Shown here piece after piece: positions 3,729 through 58,030 of a DNA stretch of 64,000 bases. A model generated the notes under the pieces. That model saw only the letters and a list, made by a program, of their open reading frames with translations, was not told the DNA's origin and did not search any database. A program made the position numbers and the translations under genes. Position 1 is the stretch's first letter, and each line of letters begins with the position of its first letter. This DNA comes from Nitrospirota bacterium (GTDB lineage Bacteria > Nitrospirota > UBA9217): assembly GCA_029858565.1 (NCBI GenBank), contig JAOUEV010000011.1, positions 1 to 64,000 of the forward strand, in the 5' to 3' direction.

Positions 3729-3811
3729 TTTTACCACGGAGGCACGGAGACACGGAGAGTGTCGGTGGTCTGCTGTTCGTCTTTCTTCGTGGCTTCGTGG
3801 CTTCATGAGAG
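3729..3811. repeat. Inverted repeat of the CACGGAG/CTTCGTGG family
   Basis: The left arm at about 3729-3759 reads TTTTACCACGGAGGCACGG and continues with ACACGGAG units. The right arm at about 3781-3811 reads CTTCGTGGCTTCGTGG, roughly its reverse complement. No gene lies between. It belongs to the same class as the repeats around the GxxExxY genes and at 26303-26389. Confidence 0.6.
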
Positions 3812-5073: not shown

Positions 5074-7677
5074 ATGATCCTTACCAAGATCCAGGAAGCC
5101 GCGTCGCTCTATCCGGAGAAGGTCGCCATCCAGATCAAGGAAAGCGACTCCTACCGGCAGTATTCCTATCAGGAACTCATTCAGGCAATAGCGTCGGTAA
5201 GCAGGGGCCTGTCGCTCCAGGGGATCCGGAAGGCCGACCGGGTCGCCATTTTGTCCGAGAACCGGCCGGAGTGGGTCATCGCCTATCTCGCTATAACTTC
5301 GCTCGGCGCGGTGGTCGTCCCTCTGGACGCGCAGCTCACGGAAAAAGAGGTCGCGGTGCTGCTGGGCAACTGCGCGGCAAAGGCAGCGTGCGTGTCCTCC
5401 TCCACGCGGGACAAACTTCCCCGGGGCGGGGCGGCAATGGTCATCTCCTTTGATGCGGGCGACGGCGTGCTGTTCTCCGACCTGATGAGGTCCCATCGGA
5501 CGGCGCCCATGCCCGCTGCTCCCTATGACAGCGACCTTGCCGCGATCCTGTACACTTCGGGGACCACGGGCGATCCCAAGGGCGTCATGCTGTCCCACGG
5601 CAACCTTGCCGCGAATTGCGCCAGCGCCATCAAGCTCGATATCATCTATCAGACCGACAACCTGCTCTGCCTTTTGCCGCTGCACCACACCTATCCTGCC
5701 ATGGCCTGCATGCTGCTGACGCTTTCCCTTGGCGGCACCATGACCATGCTGAACAGCCTCAAGGGGCCTGATATCATCGCCTGCATGCAGGAGACCGAGA
5801 TCAGCGTGCTCGTGGGCGTGCCCCAGCTCCTGACCGCGCTGCGCAGGGCGATCTTTGACAAGATCGATGCAAGCCCGAGCCATCTCCGGGTGATCGCCAA
5901 ATCCCTGCTCGGCCTGAGCGGGCTCGTCCGCAGGACCACGGGCGTCCTGATCGGCAGGAAACTGTTCAGCAAGGTGCATGAACGGTTCGGTCCCAAGTTC
6001 CGGCTCATGGCGAGCGGCGGAGCGCGGCTGGACCCCGATGTGTTCACGGACATGTCGAACCTCGGGTTCATGGTGATCGAGGCCTATGGTCTTACCGAGA
6101 CATCGCCCGCGGCGACGTTCAATCCCGTGGGCAAGCAGAAGGCCGGATCCATCGGAGTACCGATCCCTGACGTGGAACTGAGGATCGTTAACCCTGACAA
6201 GACCGGGATGGGCGAGATCGCGATCAAGGGACCGAACGTGATGCTGGGCTACTACAAAAAGCCCGAGGCATCGGCGGAAGTGCTGAAGGACGGCTGGTTC
6301 TACACCGGCGACCTGGGTTACCGGGACAGGGACGGCTACTACTTCATCACCGGCAGGTCCAAGGAGATGATCGTTCTTTCCACGGGCAAGAAGGTCTTTC
6401 CTGACGAACTGGAGAAGTTCTATAAGCAGCTGCCGGCGATCAAGGAGATCTGCATGGTCCAGACCGAACGGGGTCTGGAAGCGGCGGTGGTGCCGGATTT
6501 CGACTATCTCCGGAAGATGAACATCGCCAATGCCCGCGAGACCATCGGTTTCGAGATCGAGGACCTTGCCAAGGACCTGGCGCCGTATAAGCGGATCTCC
6601 GGTCTCAAGGTGTTCAAGGATTCCCTGCCGGTCACGCGGCTCGGTAAACTGCGGCGGGCAAAGGTTCGGGAACAGTATCTCTCCGGCGGGGAGCGTGTAG
6701 AAAAGACCGTGCGCGAGGAGGATATGGGACTGCTTGAAACGGAGACCGGAAAAAAGACGGTCGCCTGTCTCGCGCCGTTCTCGGCAAAGAAACACATTGT
6801 TCCCGACGACAACCTGGAGATCGATCTGGGGCTCGACTCCCTGGCCCGGGTCGAACTGGTGGTAAGTCTTGAGCGGACCTTTGGCGTGGGTCTGCCGGAA
6901 TCCTTCGGGTCTTTGGTCTTTACGGTGCGCGACGTGGTGGAGAAGATGGAGGAGCGTCTTGCCGCCGGGCCGTCGGGGCCGGGCGCGCACGTTCGACTGA
7001 CCTGGTCCGATATCCTGTCTGAGGAGCCTGCAGAAGAGGCAAAGCGGCTGGTGCGGCTCAAGCGAAATCCGCTTTGCGTCGCAGGGTGGGCTGCGGCTAT
7101 CTTCCTCCTGAAGATATTCTTCCTGGTCTACGGCCGCATGACCGTGCGCGGCAGGGAAAATTTGCCGAAGAAGGGGCCGTACCTGCTGACGCCGAACCAC
7201 CTGAGCAATGCCGATGCGTTCCTGCAGGCCGTTGCCATGCCCCTCTCCATCGCGCGGCAGGTCTTCTATCTCGGAGACACCAAGTTCTTCGGCGGGCCGG
7301 TGTCATCGCGCATCGCCCAATACATGCAGGTCATTCCTGTGGACATGGAAGCGAAGCTCTTCAACGCGCTCCAGCTATCGGCATTCATGCTCCGGGAGGG
7401 CAAGGTGCTCTGCGTGTTCCCCGAGGGCGCTCGTTCACGGGACGGAAAGATCAAGGACTTCAAGAAAGGCGTCGGTATCCTTGCTAAGGAACTGAACGTG
7501 CCGCTGGTCCCGGTGGCCATTACCGGTACCTTTGAGTTCCTGCGGCCCGGGAGCAACGTGCCCCGGCCGGCCAGGGTGAGCGTGACCTTCGGCAAACCGC
7601 TCTATCCCGGAGAAATGGGATATGAGGAGATCGTGAAGAGGCTCTACGGGGAAGTGGTGGAGTTGTTGGAGAAGTAA
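5074..7677 (+). CDS. Fused AMP-dependent acyl ligase / acyl carrier / 1-acylglycerol-phosphate-type acyltransferase
   Basis: An 867-residue three-module protein. Residues 1-540 are an acyl-CoA/acyl-ACP synthetase: the ATP loop YTSGTTGDPKGVMLSHGN lies near 160-177, YGLTETSP follows in the middle and YTGDLGYRDRDGYYFITGRSKEM near the hinge. Residues about 560-640 hold an acyl carrier domain with the phosphopantetheine serine in GLDSLARVEL (S589). Residues about 670-867 are a PlsC-type acyltransferase with H709-x4-D714 (NHLSNADAF), FPEGARSRDG and a hydrophobic lead-in (WAAAIFLLKIFFLVYG). The fusion suggests that an activated acyl chain is held on the built-in carrier and passed to a (lyso)phospholipid, as in Aas-type recycling, but with its own ACP. 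Start chosen at 5074 after CAGGAGAGCCC. Confidence 0.88.
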   Translation: MILTKIQEAASLYPEKVAIQIKESDSYRQYSYQELIQAIASVSRGLSLQGIRKADRVAILSENRPEWVIAYLAITSLGAVVVPLDAQLTEKEVAVLLGNCAAKAACVSSSTRDKLPRGGAAMVISFDAGDGVLFSDLMRSHRTAPMPAAPYDSDLAAILYTSGTTGDPKGVMLSHGNLAANCASAIKLDIIYQTDNLLCLLPLHHTYPAMACMLLTLSLGGTMTMLNSLKGPDIIACMQETEISVLVGVPQLLTALRRAIFDKIDASPSHLRVIAKSLLGLSGLVRRTTGVLIGRKLFSKVHERFGPKFRLMASGGARLDPDVFTDMSNLGFMVIEAYGLTETSPAATFNPVGKQKAGSIGVPIPDVELRIVNPDKTGMGEIAIKGPNVMLGYYKKPEASAEVLKDGWFYTGDLGYRDRDGYYFITGRSKEMIVLSTGKKVFPDELEKFYKQLPAIKEICMVQTERGLEAAVVPDFDYLRKMNIANARETIGFEIEDLAKDLAPYKRISGLKVFKDSLPVTRLGKLRRAKVREQYLSGGERVEKTVREEDMGLLETETGKKTVACLAPFSAKKHIVPDDNLEIDLGLDSLARVELVVSLERTFGVGLPESFGSLVFTVRDVVEKMEERLAAGPSGPGAHVRLTWSDILSEEPAEEAKRLVRLKRNPLCVAGWAAAIFLLKIFFLVYGRMTVRGRENLPKKGPYLLTPNHLSNADAFLQAVAMPLSIARQVFYLGDTKFFGGPVSSRIAQYMQVIPVDMEAKLFNALQLSAFMLREGKVLCVFPEGARSRDGKIKDFKKGVGILAKELNVPLVPVAITGTFEFLRPGSNVPRPARVSVTFGKPLYPGEMGYEEIVKRLYGEVVELLEK

Positions 7678-7750
7678 CGAGAGGCGAGAGGCAAGAGACA
7701 AGAGACGAGAGACAAGAGACGAGAGACGAGAGACAAGAGACGAGAGACAA
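7678..7750. repeat. Heptameric tandem repeat GAGACAA/GAGACGA
   Basis: Starting right after the stop of the fusion gene, about ten copies of a 7-base unit (GAGACAA, GAGACGA, GAGGCAA) follow in tandem. Between here and the patatin gene (7751-7902) there is half of an ACGCAGAGTGACGCTGAG repeat and no convincing gene. Confidence 0.75.
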
Positions 7751-7902
7751 CAAGCCCATTCAACGCAGAGTGACGCTGAGAACCCTATGATGAAAGCTGA
7801 AGAAGAGAAATCCTGGAAGCAGGCAGCGAATATCATAGGCGACTTTCATGGAATTTTCAGCATTGAATGAAGTGTCCTCTTTACAGCAGTCGTAACGCAC
7901 TT

Positions 7903-9683: not shown

Positions 9684-10109
9684 GTGACTCCATGGAGGAT
9701 CATATACGTTCACCACAGAGACACAGAGGAAACCGTCTACTTCCACAGGGAACTGACGGAACGGCTGATTGCCTGCGCTATCGAGGTGCATCGTCATCTC
9801 GGTCCGGGTCTGCTCGAATCCGCCTATGATGAGTGCTTTTGCTACGAGCTTGAAAAGAACGGCATTCCTTCGGAACGTCAAAAAGCACTCCCCTTGACCT
9901 ACAAGGAGATCAAGCTTGACTGCGGATATCGCATGGATGTGGTTGCAGACAGGAAAGTGGTCGTAGAGCTTAAATGTGTTGATAGGATATTGCCGATCCA
10001 TGAGGCCCAGCTGCTGACCTATCTGAAACTGTCGGGATGCAAGGTGGGTCTCCTCATCAATTTTCATGCTGCCACATTGAAAGAAGGGATCAAGAGGCTT
10101 GTCTTGTAG
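9684..10109 (+). CDS. GxxExxY protein (PDDEXK_3-like)
   Basis: About 141 residues. The naming motif is seen as GPGLLESAY, preceded by ELTERLIACAIEVHRHL and followed by YKEIKLDCGYRMDVVADRKVVVELK, where D...V-V-E-L-K is the restriction-nuclease-like core, and by QLLTYLKLSGCKVGLLINF. The function of the family is unknown. No in-frame ATG exists near the expected N-terminus: the GTG at 9684 is used here, and the ATG at 9692 is in another frame, so the start may be damaged. The gene is bracketed by CACAGAGACACAGAGG-type repeats in inverted orientation (9709-9729 and 10113-10141), the left one lying within the reading frame. Confidence 0.75.
   Translation: MTPWRIIYVHHRDTEETVYFHRELTERLIACAIEVHRHLGPGLLESAYDECFCYELEKNGIPSERQKALPLTYKEIKLDCGYRMDVVADRKVVVELKCVDRILPIHEAQLLTYLKLSGCKVGLLINFHAATLKEGIKRLVL
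9709..9729 (+). repeat. Left arm of inverted repeat around GxxExxY gene
   Basis: CCACAGAGACACAGAGG, inverted relative to the copy at 10113-10141. Confidence 0.65.
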
Positions 10110-10112
10110 GGG

Positions 10113-10141
10113 CTCTCAGTGTCTCTGTGCCTCTGTGGTTC
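10113..10141 (-). repeat. Right arm of inverted repeat around GxxExxY gene
   Basis: Reverse-complement reading gives ACCACAGAGGCACAGAGACA, matching the left arm at 9709-9729. It begins three bases after the stop codon of the GxxExxY gene. Confidence 0.65.
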
Positions 10142-11044: not shown

Positions 11045-11141
11045 TTTCGCGCGAAGCCGCAAAGTCGCAAAGAACATCGGAACAAGCTCATTCTCTGGAA
11101 CCGGGATTTGCTTTGAGTTTTTGCGCGAGACGCTTTAGTGG
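11045..11141. repeat. CGCGAAGCCGCAAAG-type inverted repeat
   Basis: The left arm at 11045-11075 contains CGCGCGAAGCCGCAAAGTCG. The right arm at about 11110-11141 contains TTTTTGCGCGAGACGCTTTA, an imperfect reverse complement. No gene is enclosed. It belongs to the same class as the repeats at 50605-50773 and 57022-57486. Confidence 0.5.
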
Positions 11142-26302: not shown

Positions 26303-26389
26303 TTTTTACCGCAGAGGGCGCAGAGGACGCCGAGTAAACCGGGTTGTCTGGATTCTCACTCTGCGATCTCCGCGATCTCGGCGGTAAAA
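26303..26389. repeat. Inverted repeat between nuoE and nuoF
   Basis: The left arm TTTTTACCGCAGAGGGCGCA (from 26303) and the right arm ending TCTCGGCGGTAAAA (to 26389) are imperfect reverse complements enclosing about 25 bases. It is the CGCAGAG member of the repeat family seen around GxxExxY genes. It lies inside the nuo transcript, so it could fold in the mRNA and affect expression between the D/E and F/G parts. Confidence 0.7.
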
Positions 26390-50604: not shown

Positions 50605-50773
50605 TATCGCGCAAAGTCGCAAAGAACGGCGGAGGCGAATAGCAAATATCCGATTGTTTTGAAATATCAAGGGCCAGTTTCTATTCTGGAACTGCATGCA
50701 AAAAAAGGAAAATGGGTTCAGGAACTGACTGATCTCTCGATCTTTCTTTGCGTCTTAGCGGCTTTGCGCGAGA
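50605..50773. repeat. Inverted repeat element of about 170 bp
   Basis: The left arm TCGCGCAAAGTCGCAAAG (from 50605) and the right arm TTTGCGTCTTAGCGGCTTTG (ending 50773) are imperfect reverse complements enclosing about 110 bases with no gene. The arms match those around the GxxExxY gene at 57022-57486, so it looks like an empty version of that element. Confidence 0.65.
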
Positions 50774-56414: not shown

Positions 56415-56454
56415 GGTATAACAAGGTGTTGACGGGACGGAACCCGTTATATAC
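56415..56454 (-). repeat. Cassette-array boundary, attC/attI-like
   Basis: Minus-strand reading begins GTATATAAC and ends GTTATACC, an inverted pair around about 23 bases including GGGTTCCGTCCCG. It marks the upstream end of the array and is too short for a full attC; it could be a shortened attC or an attI-like insertion point. Confidence 0.5.
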
Positions 56455-56466
56455 ATATATATGAAC

Positions 56467-56574
56467 TTATCTACCGGTATATAATTTTATCTATCTGTAG
56501 ATAAGAGGCGTTCATCTACCGGTAGATGATTTCTCGGATATCCGCATTTCTAAGGTTCATCTACCTGTATATAA
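56467..56574. repeat. Four 18-bp palindromic repeats
   Basis: Copies at 56467-56484, 56487-56504, 56512-56529 and 56557-56574 share the pattern T(T/C)ATCTACCGGTAGAT(A/G)A. The third, TCATCTACCGGTAGATGA, is a perfect palindrome. The fourth overlaps the 3' end of the 115-residue gene. Start-to-start spacings are 20, 25 and 45 bp. They lie between that gene and the first cassette and could be binding sites for a dimeric DNA-binding protein. Confidence 0.8.
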
Positions 56575-56897
56575 CTTTCCAGGGGCGTGCCAACGATCTT
56601 GCCGTATTTCGCGAGCCAGAGCCTCTTCTCCGGGTCCCATCGTCCGCCAGCTGTTTTTGCCTGCGCCCGGGCTGGCAGGTCGGAAACTTCGATGCGCAAG
56701 GGGACAAGGGTGTCCGGGGTATAGCGCCGGGGCGGCGGGGTCCAGTTGGTCCGCTCGACGACCAGCTCGACCGTTTTGAGCCGCTGCCGCGACTGCTCGT
56801 CATATTTGAACCGGATGCAGACCAGGGCATCGCCGTACTTTTCCGCAAGGCCTTTGGTGCCGGGCTGTCCCGGCCTGAGGATCAGGCGTGTTCTCAT
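56550..56897 (-). CDS. Hypothetical protein of the UmuD/polymerase neighbourhood
   Basis: A 115-residue basic protein starting MRTRLILRPGQPGTKGLAEK, with ALVCIRFKYDEQSRQRLKTV and ELVVERTNWTPP in the middle and a KTAGGRWDPEKRLWLAKYG block near the end. I recognise the start as a small conserved protein often encoded near LexA/UmuD-like or polymerase genes or mobile elements, with no known function; the GGRWDPEKRLW block may bind nucleic acid (inference). Start at 56897 after GGGAGAGCGGA. It lies in the same direction as the UmuD-like gene upstream and the polymerase downstream, so it was probably part of one operon before the cassette array and the GxxExxY element were inserted. Confidence 0.72.
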   Translation of the reverse strand: MRTRLILRPGQPGTKGLAEKYGDALVCIRFKYDEQSRQRLKTVELVVERTNWTPPPRRYTPDTLVPLRIEVSDLPARAQAKTAGGRWDPEKRLWLAKYGKIVGTPLESYIQVDEP

Positions 56898-57021
56898 TCC
56901 GCTCTCCCTGCGACCGGTTGCGGAACTACGGCTAGAGTAGCATTGATCAGGAAATTCCGCAAGCCGGAAGTTGTCATTTCTTGCATGTAAAGAAACGAAC
57001 GGCAAAAGCAAAGCAACGGCG

Positions 57022-57051
57022 TCTCTCGCAAAGCCGCCAAGCCGCAAAGGG
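57022..57051 (+). repeat. Left arm of inverted repeat around second GxxExxY gene
   Basis: Contains TCTCGCAAAGCCGCCAAG followed by CCGCAAAGG. Inverted relative to the copy at 57454-57486. Confidence 0.7.
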
Positions 57052-57067
57052 ATAAGAACGTCAAAGG

Positions 57068-57445
57068 CTACAGCCGGTTGACTACCCGTTCGATCCCATC
57101 CTTGATAAGGCTGACGTTAAAATTAACCAACATGGCGAGTTTCAAACCAGTCAACTTCAAATAGGTCGTGACCTGCTTTTTGTGAACAGGCTGAACTTTC
57201 TCCACGGATTTCAACTCAACGATAACCAAATCATTCACGATCAGATCTGCACGAAAGCCAAGGTCCAGTTTCACTTCTTCATACTGCACCGCTACCTCGA
57301 CCTCTTTCGCGCACTTCAGGCCTGCTTTGTTCAATTCATAAATGAGAATTTCAAGATAGACCGATTCCAAAAGACCTGGTCCGAGCTTTTTATGAATTCT
57401 GTAACAACAATCGACAATGATCTTCGATAACTGATTTTCGTCCAC
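57068..57445 (-). CDS. GxxExxY protein (PDDEXK_3-like)
   Basis: A 125-residue protein with all family marks: GPGLLESVY (the GxxExxY motif), YEEVKLDLGFRADLIVNDLVIVELKSVEKV (nuclease-like core D...ELK) and QVTTYLKLTGLKLAMLVNF. It has a normal ATG start (MDENQLSKII). Function unknown; the fold relates to restriction-type nucleases. It is flanked by inverted CGCAAAGCCGC-type repeats at 57022-57051 and 57454-57486, and lies between the UmuD-like gene and the 115-residue gene, as if inserted as a unit of about 465 bp. It is a paralogue of the gene at 9684-10109. Confidence 0.85.
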   Translation of the reverse strand: MDENQLSKIIVDCCYRIHKKLGPGLLESVYLEILIYELNKAGLKCAKEVEVAVQYEEVKLDLGFRADLIVNDLVIVELKSVEKVQPVHKKQVTTYLKLTGLKLAMLVNFNVSLIKDGIERVVNRL

Positions 57446-57453
57446 GGTTCCCG

Positions 57454-57486
57454 CCTTTCTTTGCGGCTTAGCGGCTTAGCGCGAGA
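57454..57486 (-). repeat. Right arm of inverted repeat around second GxxExxY gene
   Basis: Its reverse complement contains TCTCGCGCTAAGCCGCTAAG followed by CCGCAAAG, matching the left arm at 57022-57051 at most positions. Confidence 0.7.
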
Positions 57487-57520
57487 AAAATGCATTTGTT
57501 GTTCTGCATTGATGATGATG

Positions 57521-57994
57521 CTATTTGTACTTCCTCACCACCGCCGTCACCACTCCGGCTACTTTCAGCTCCTGCTTCGGCCGGATGGGCGGGTACTTGG
57601 GGTTCGCGGCAACGAGGGTGACGGTGTCCCCGCGCTTGCGGAGGTATTTCATGGTCCATTCGCCGTCCACCTGGGCGATGACGATGTCGCCGCTCTTTGC
57701 CTGGAGGCTCCGGTCGATCAGGACCATGTCACCGGGCATGATCCCCGCGCCGGTCATGGAATCGCCTGACACGTTCAGCAGGAAGGTGGCCTCGCGGTTC
57801 TGGATCAGCAGATCGTCGAGCGACAGGGTGTCGACCAGTTCCTCCTCGGCAGGAGAGGGGAAGCCGGCCTCGACCCGGCCCAGGACCGTGACCTTGCCGC
57901 GGTCCCGTTGATCAGCGAACCTCGCCAGAAACGTGAACGCGGCGCTCTTGTTCGGGAGTCCGGTCGCCTTGCTTGTTGTTATCGCGGTAATCAT
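57521..57994 (-). CDS. UmuD/LexA-like autoproteolytic SOS protein
   Basis: A 157-residue S24-family protein of UmuD type, without a DNA-binding domain. The self-cleavage site is A43-G44 in RVEAGFPSPAEE, the nucleophile is S79 in SGDSMTGAGI and the general base is K116 in EWTMKYL. After RecA-stimulated cleavage it would act as a partner of a translesion polymerase, presumably the Y-family enzyme at 49244-50557. The start at 57994 is set by the promoter: the -10 box ends at 58002, so the expected transcript start falls at or within a base or two of this ATG and the mRNA would be leaderless. An earlier ATG at 58003 overlaps the -10 box and cannot be used. Confidence 0.9.
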   Translation of the reverse strand: MITAITTSKATGLPNKSAAFTFLARFADQRDRGKVTVLGRVEAGFPSPAEEELVDTLSLDDLLIQNREATFLLNVSGDSMTGAGIMPGDMVLIDRSLQAKSGDIVIAQVDGEWTMKYLRKRGDTVTLVAANPKYPPIRPKQELKVAGVVTAVVRKYK

Positions 57995-58001
57995 GGCATC
58001 C

Positions 58002-58030
58002 ATTATAGGTGAACAAGTGTTCACCGTCAA
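58002..58030 (-). promoter_or_regulatory. SOS-type promoter of the UmuD-like gene
   Basis: On the minus strand TTGACG (58030-58025) and TATAAT (58007-58002) are spaced by 17 bp. The spacer is filled by the palindrome described at 58008-58025, so a bound repressor would block RNA polymerase. Confidence 0.85.
58008..58025 (-). promoter_or_regulatory. LexA-type operator
   Basis: GGTGAACACTTGTTCACC has perfect 8-bp inverted arms and contains GAAC-N4-GTTC, the core of the LexA box of Gram-positive bacteria and some other phyla. It lies between the -35 and -10 of the UmuD-like gene. No lexA gene is in the window. Confidence 0.8.

Follow-up and report, generated by a model that had tools for sequence, protein, structure and literature searches.

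GxxExxY genes and the heptamer arrays that bracket them form a mobile or once-mobile family with gene-less derivatives

Among described systems, one of the closest to the locus reported here is the REPtron, in which the gene for a nuclease-type enzyme, TnpA-REP (RAYT), is flanked by type-matched, dispersed repeats (REPs or REPINs). Many of these repeats form intergenic inverted pairs with short loops, enzyme and repeat co-evolve, the gene is under housekeeping-like selection, and TnpA-REP is thought to recognise REPs and drive their spread (PMC8266576). TnpA-REP is an HUH Y1 enzyme, and REPs are 20- to 50-nt palindromes preceded by GTAG. MITEs, e.g., Chunjie of Geobacter uraniireducens, are short, non-coding, and intergenic, with inverted-repeat ends. 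IS66 elements have inverted repeats that start with GTAAGCG and are flanked by 8-bp duplications (PMC11946415), and IS66 elements carrying a passenger gene have been reported (PMC12888890). Here, we describe genes that are clear members of the GxxExxY family (TIGR04256/PF13366, PDDEXK_3), whose family names are silent on the repeat arrays and gene-less copies that accompany them.

The stretch of DNA that we analyzed (the window) spans 64,000 nt of a Nitrospirota genome and contains two GxxExxY genes. When arms within 1 kb of each other are considered, the best inverted repeat in the whole window is 57022-57049/57459-57486, with 28-nt arms that are 89% complementary and 409 nt apart. These arms, each made of three CGCAAAG-type heptamers with 1-nt spacers (plus strand on the left, minus strand on the right), bracket a 125-residue GxxExxY gene on the minus strand (57068-57445). 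The second gene (9693-10109, plus strand) overlaps with its 5' end a left arm of two CACAGAG heptamers on the plus strand (about 9712-9728) and is followed by a right arm of three CACAGAG-type heptamers on the minus strand (about 10115-10139). An earlier note on this DNA had described both genes as bracketed by inverted copies of low-complexity arms. The bracketing is confirmed here, but "low-complexity" understates the arms, which consist of heptamers set apart by spacers and have a sharply placed outer boundary. Of the four gene-less pairs listed by the same note, three were recovered, at 3735-3807 (CACGGAG/CACGAAG, by heptamer-array search), 26304-26389 (CGCAGAG type with 2-nt spacers, by inverted-repeat and array searches), and 50610-50768 (CGCAAAG type). 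The fourth, at 11045-11141, has only one good arm, a perfect CGCAAAG-type left array on the plus strand (11050-11072); its partner (to 11141) is too degraded to confirm, with no detectable right array and folding no better than that of shuffled sequences. The window holds 16 arrays of at least two units, where third-order Markov sequence would give 2.3. Its 3-unit arrays, with a single exception, fall within the six places of the earlier note, with a plus-strand array on the left and a minus-strand array on the right. Other repeats are also present in the window. Palindromic TATCTACCGGTAGATA-like repeats cluster near a small gene at 56446-56575, possibly as an operator array or mini-satellite, and other short sequences, each recurring many times in the genome and its relatives, are found at 888-927, 1521-1578, 2227-2276, and 7669-7751.

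Across elements, an arm consists of two to four heptamers of the form C-[AG]-C-N-[AG]-A-[GT], separated by spacers of 1 to 3 nt, on the plus strand to the left and on the minus strand to the right. Unit type and spacer length vary between elements and agree within each of them, the two arms of one element showing 95% agreement at unit positions 5 and 7, and 94.5% in spacer length. Spacer bases agree at 46% within an element and at 41% when arms of one type are mispaired. Since the spacer bases hardly match although their length is kept, the arms look like protein-binding iterons and not like a conserved stem. Base pairing is thus not the conserved property of the arms, which are more simply read as spaced recognition sites for a protein. 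Gene-less and gene-bearing pairs share the same edges: the outer flank is A-rich, the first heptamer is preceded by approximately CCnTTTTC[TA]C, and AAAGGC follows the last one. A second quasi-periodic inverted repeat, with TGCAAAAT/ATTTTGCA units, was seen in two loci (L192, 3837-3964; L201, about 290-490) at the same intergenic sites as heptamer pairs in related genomes, and is possibly a diverged arm type.

Alternatively, the arms might be RNA or DNA stems (terminators, mRNA-stabilising or attenuation hairpins) that are scattered by ordinary means, with GxxExxY using one pair as a regulatory flank. The intergenic location of the pairs fits such a role, as do their outer flanks, which are A-rich on the left and T-rich on the right and resemble bidirectional terminators, and the significant folding of one gene-less pair (26304-26389, with a z of -4.0 for the single-strand DNA fold). 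We nevertheless consider stems improbable because the spacer bases hardly pair while spacer length is kept, no Rfam family was found in the window, arm type tracks the nuclease tree, and target-site duplications and gene remnants occur in the G072 family (the latter two points are detailed below).

Arms and gene go together well beyond the window. Inverted arms are present at all seven GxxExxY genes of this genome, with the unit types CACAGAG, CACGGAT (two genes), CACGGAAgaGGCGGAT, CGCAAAG, CACGAAG, and CGCAGAG. Genome-wide, there are 191 strict 3-unit arrays versus eight for the same pattern read backward, and about 100 gene-less arm pairs. In 460 kb of this genome that were fully read, we counted 34 left-right pairs, of which only two have loops longer than 150 bp, and each of these two holds one of the window's GxxExxY genes. 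Four-helix-bundle TIGR02436 genes, a candidate second passenger of the arms, were rejected since none of their seven loci in this genome has arms. For a cross-phylum sample, 80 loci from GTDB genomes were combined with those of the family genomes, giving 144 distinct loci. Array scores reached at least 15 bits upstream of 104, downstream of 108, and on both sides of 94 of these, versus 0.56% of random windows. The inverted alignment of upstream to downstream flank scored at least 30 at 105 of the 144 loci and in none of 119 control flanks taken 585-800 bp away, and at 91 of the 144 loci (seven expected) the true partner arm ranked among the best 5% of all candidate partners. The repeats are thus more common near GxxExxY genes than elsewhere when flanks are aligned across genomes, which speaks for the mobile or once-mobile unit suggested by the earlier note. 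Similarly flanked genes occur in Nitrospirota, desulfobacterial and geobacterial genomes, Bacteroidota, Chloroflexota, Planctomycetota, Verrucomicrobiota, and others; a unit with CACAGAG-type arms in Bacteroides finegoldii (L224, 3880-4440) lies between radA and the gene for an FAD-dependent protein. Plasmid records gave eight matches, none with a near-identical empty partner, and phage records searched for units gave none. The GxxExxY gene and the heptamer arrays on its two sides make up one small genetic unit, which is mobile or was so once.

The protein encoded between the arms has the features of a nuclease. The 125-residue protein scores 138.8 bits against TIGR04256 and the protein of 9693-10109 scores 150.5 bits (cut-off of 35 for both), while the match of the former to PF13366 (PDDEXK_3) is 134 bits. 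The family signature, G24xxE27xxY30, is invariant, and 11 residues are conserved in all of 32 diverse sequences: H18, G22, G24, E27, Y30, D67, E77, K79, Q91, Y95, and N108. An AlphaFold model (pLDDT of 93.9) has its best Foldseek matches in LHK-Exo, Cas4, and lambda exonuclease; a PDB search by sequence gave no match. Both the fold and the invariant catalytic residues (D67, E77xK79, and Q91xxxY95) are those of the PD-(D/E)XK superfamily, and the QxxxY motif is presumably that of the RecB/Cas4 group. The nuclease-like core anticipated in the earlier note is therefore present, and its residues make up a complete, predicted active site. Wherever dS is measurable and not near zero, dN/dS is 0.03-0.10; one nearly identical pair gives 0.56, on too few changes. 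Judged by these ratios, the GxxExxY protein is maintained, under purifying selection.

Arm type follows the nuclease. When arm characters are mapped on the protein tree, unit positions 5 and 7 require 17 changes versus 35.6 ± 1.4 after shuffling, and spacer length 21 versus 51.9 ± 2.9. In the family to which the window belongs, whose genomes have several types in common, the corresponding numbers are 10 versus 22.8 and 7 versus 20.7. Such agreement is partly expected if arms are merely inherited with the gene, but it still marks gene and arms as one unit. Well-supported pairs of protein and arm type that are independent of each other were too few to trace covariation at single residues. Gene-less arrays show a related pattern. 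The rare CACGAAT-type arrays number 55, 51, and 69 in the three family genomes that own a CACGAAT-type GxxExxY gene, versus 0-28 in the other 11 of the 14 family genomes (exact p = 0.003, only a guide since related genomes are not fully independent). Spacer lengths behave likewise, the arrays listed for G001 having mostly 3-nt spacers, like its GxxExxY gene (L166), and those listed for G005 mostly 2-nt spacers, like its own (L167). Around the latter gene, which is of CACGAAT type, several gene-less CACGAAT-type pairs lie within a few kilobases (G005:C2:19845-25112), as if spread were partly local.

Not all comparisons are as clear. Outside the window's family, GxxExxY was found in two of 11 array-rich genomes versus six of 123 (p = 0.13), a weak association, and an intact GxxExxY gene is missing from several array-rich genomes. 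The latter fits derivatives outliving the gene, yet it weakens nuclease-driven spread. At one syntenic site (site G; the second GxxExxY gene of L156, and L162, L197, and L196), apparently orthologous units have changed the sequence of both arms together, from CACTGAGgaCACTGAA to CACGGAAgaGGCGGAT, and the two 23-nt arms are perfectly identical in G000. The site G arms thus apparently underwent concerted evolution.

Orthologous sites with and without a unit were found. One such site lies between ubiA and a patatin-like gene: G000, G010, G005, and G006 carry the unit there, G002 and G003 have an empty site (68 bp and 38 bp, respectively, versus 519 bp), and G009 has a gene-less pair of another type instead. 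Three further GxxExxY sites have empty counterparts, in G010, G012, and G001, and gene-less pairs are present or absent at sites compared between the congeneric G005 and G006. Orthologous sites are thus polymorphic for units, by either gain or loss. The earlier note had proposed looking for such presence and absence together with target duplications. Empty sites were found, and duplications were detected in G072 (below). At 123 elements outside G072 there was no excess over mispaired flanks; the intergenic DNA of species-level relatives is too diverged for junctions.

Beside a UmuD/LexA-like gene (57000-58030 in the window), GxxExxY units occur in five genera (G000/G010, G001, G005, and G012). 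Their proteins fall into two or more unrelated clades, which differ in arm type, and this suggests a repeatedly used site. This occupancy, along with the stand-alone nature of the PD-(D/E)XK nuclease, is what a homing-like, selfish nuclease would lead one to expect, i.e., GxxExxY would cut unoccupied sites, repair would copy the unit in, and hairpins would be footprints of homing. This seems to us very improbable since nothing recognisable beyond A/T richness is common to the insertion sites, and young copies carry the 8-bp duplications typical of transposition.

These young copies come from G072, a genome of another family of the same phylum, in which one young pair is present in about 20 copies. 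Their ends are exact (GTAAAAGTTCAGCTAAC-arm ... arm-GTGAACTATTAC), with termini GTAAAAGTTCAG.../...TGAACTATTAC (the end pair is also given as GTAAAAGTTCAG/GTAATAGTTCAC). Perfect 8-bp direct repeats flank about half of the 22 copies with resolved boundaries, and one more copy matches at seven of eight positions. The copies are 102-192 bp long and still contain at least one end of a GxxExxY gene: the gene start (ATGGAAATTAATCAAATAACAGAAAAGATA, MEINQITEKI) is found between the arms, and longer copies also hold the gene end. In the 192-bp copy (L275), MEINQITEKIIGAAIEIHK is joined to FDVSVLRDGIKRIANRL and the stop. Hence, the gene-less copies of G072 derive, by internal deletion, from a GxxExxY unit that moved, which is direct evidence for the claim of the earlier note that gene-less copies are non-autonomous derivatives. 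Empty sites and these derivatives with their duplications together support mobility. A relic GxxExxY gene with stops was found between arms in G028. Separately, a nested short inverted-repeat element (GAGGCTCTTGCAAAAGTC...GACTTTTGCAAGAGCCTC) is inserted inside several G072 copies (L231, L270, L271, L276, and L285).

In their GTAA termini and 8-bp duplications, the G072 copies are like IS66, and this family could therefore have been mobilized in trans by a DDE transposase. More generally, the units might be MITE-like and moved in trans by DDE transposases of unrelated insertion sequences (IS66-type in G072), with GxxExxY as a passenger, of which there is precedent in IS66, and with the arms as its own regulatory or protective sites that are carried along. 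We regard this as rather unlikely. The GTAA ends are external to the arms, and the other hairpins examined (those in G000, G001, G036, and G068, plus two in G072) lack them; no duplications like those of G072 were found at the 123 other elements; and if GxxExxY were a passenger, there would be no reason to expect the number, unit type, and spacer length of gene-less copies to match the resident GxxExxY gene.

The explanation that we prefer, with a probability of roughly 0.55, is that the unit's own nuclease acts on the arms and promotes spread. The PD-(D/E)XK nuclease would read the arms as spaced iterons, bind them as its cognate sites, and cut or nick at or beside them. Cutting would promote the copying or transposition of anything with matching arms into A/T-rich intergenic DNA, possibly in cooperation with a host or IS-encoded strand-transfer enzyme, and gene-less arm pairs would be the unit's non-autonomous derivatives. 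We thus infer three roles for GxxExxY, namely arm binding, DNA cleavage, and the driving of spread, and it is likely that GxxExxY itself moves units and derivatives. Specificity matching, selection, and the finding of no other gene in arm pairs count in favor of nuclease-driven spread. Against it count the lack of a strand-transfer domain in a 125-residue nuclease, the IS66-like ends and duplications in G072, the weak association of arrays with GxxExxY outside the family, the null result for duplications at 123 elements, and the arms that changed together in apparently orthologous genes at site G. It is possible that nuclease-driven and IS-driven movement are combined.

GxxExxY units share with REPtrons the type-matched, dispersed repeats that flank a nuclease-type gene, the many intergenic inverted pairs with short loops, the co-evolution of enzyme and repeat, and the housekeeping-like selection on the gene. 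They differ in that the enzyme has a PD-(D/E)XK and not an HUH fold, the repeats are spaced-heptamer arrays with an outer consensus ...TTTT-C-[TA]-C and no GTAG, and several repeat types coexist in one genome. By analogy, GxxExxY units resemble REPtrons in function but are not REPtrons by membership. Like MITEs, the gene-less copies are short, non-coding, and intergenic with inverted-repeat ends, and those of G072 derive by internal deletion, with 8-bp duplications, from a parent that is a putative autonomous unit. Unlike MITEs, they end in heptamer arrays whose type follows a nuclease and not a known transposase, with duplications detected in one genome only. The likeness to IS66, in termini and duplications, is limited to one family; other elements examined lack such ends, no IS66 proteins were found in the element, and the part of G072 that was searched yielded no complete IS bearing them. 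In the open literature (subscription papers lay outside the search), we found no description of the repeats or of a repeat-nuclease link: GxxExxY is mentioned only in two papers on other subjects, and neither PDDEXK_3 nor six arm sequences were found.

Since the arm-flanked gene is accompanied in host genomes by hundreds of gene-less copies, some of which are proven deletion derivatives, gene and repeats are one mobile or once-mobile family, for which our search of the open literature gave no name. In this one genome, the repeats make up roughly 100 insertions between genes. With odds somewhat short of even, the 125-residue stand-alone nuclease may be the specificity factor and cutter of an undescribed class of mobile repeats, in which iterons co-evolve with it in sequence and spacing and compatible types run in parallel within a genome. 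PD-(D/E)XK enzymes have so far been known in transposition as TnsA, a partner in Tn7. If the nuclease is the mobiliser, GxxExxY units would be a second solution to what REP/RAYT does, and the matched types of gene and repeat would amount to a specificity code, written in heptamer and spacer length, that is testable on small proteins.
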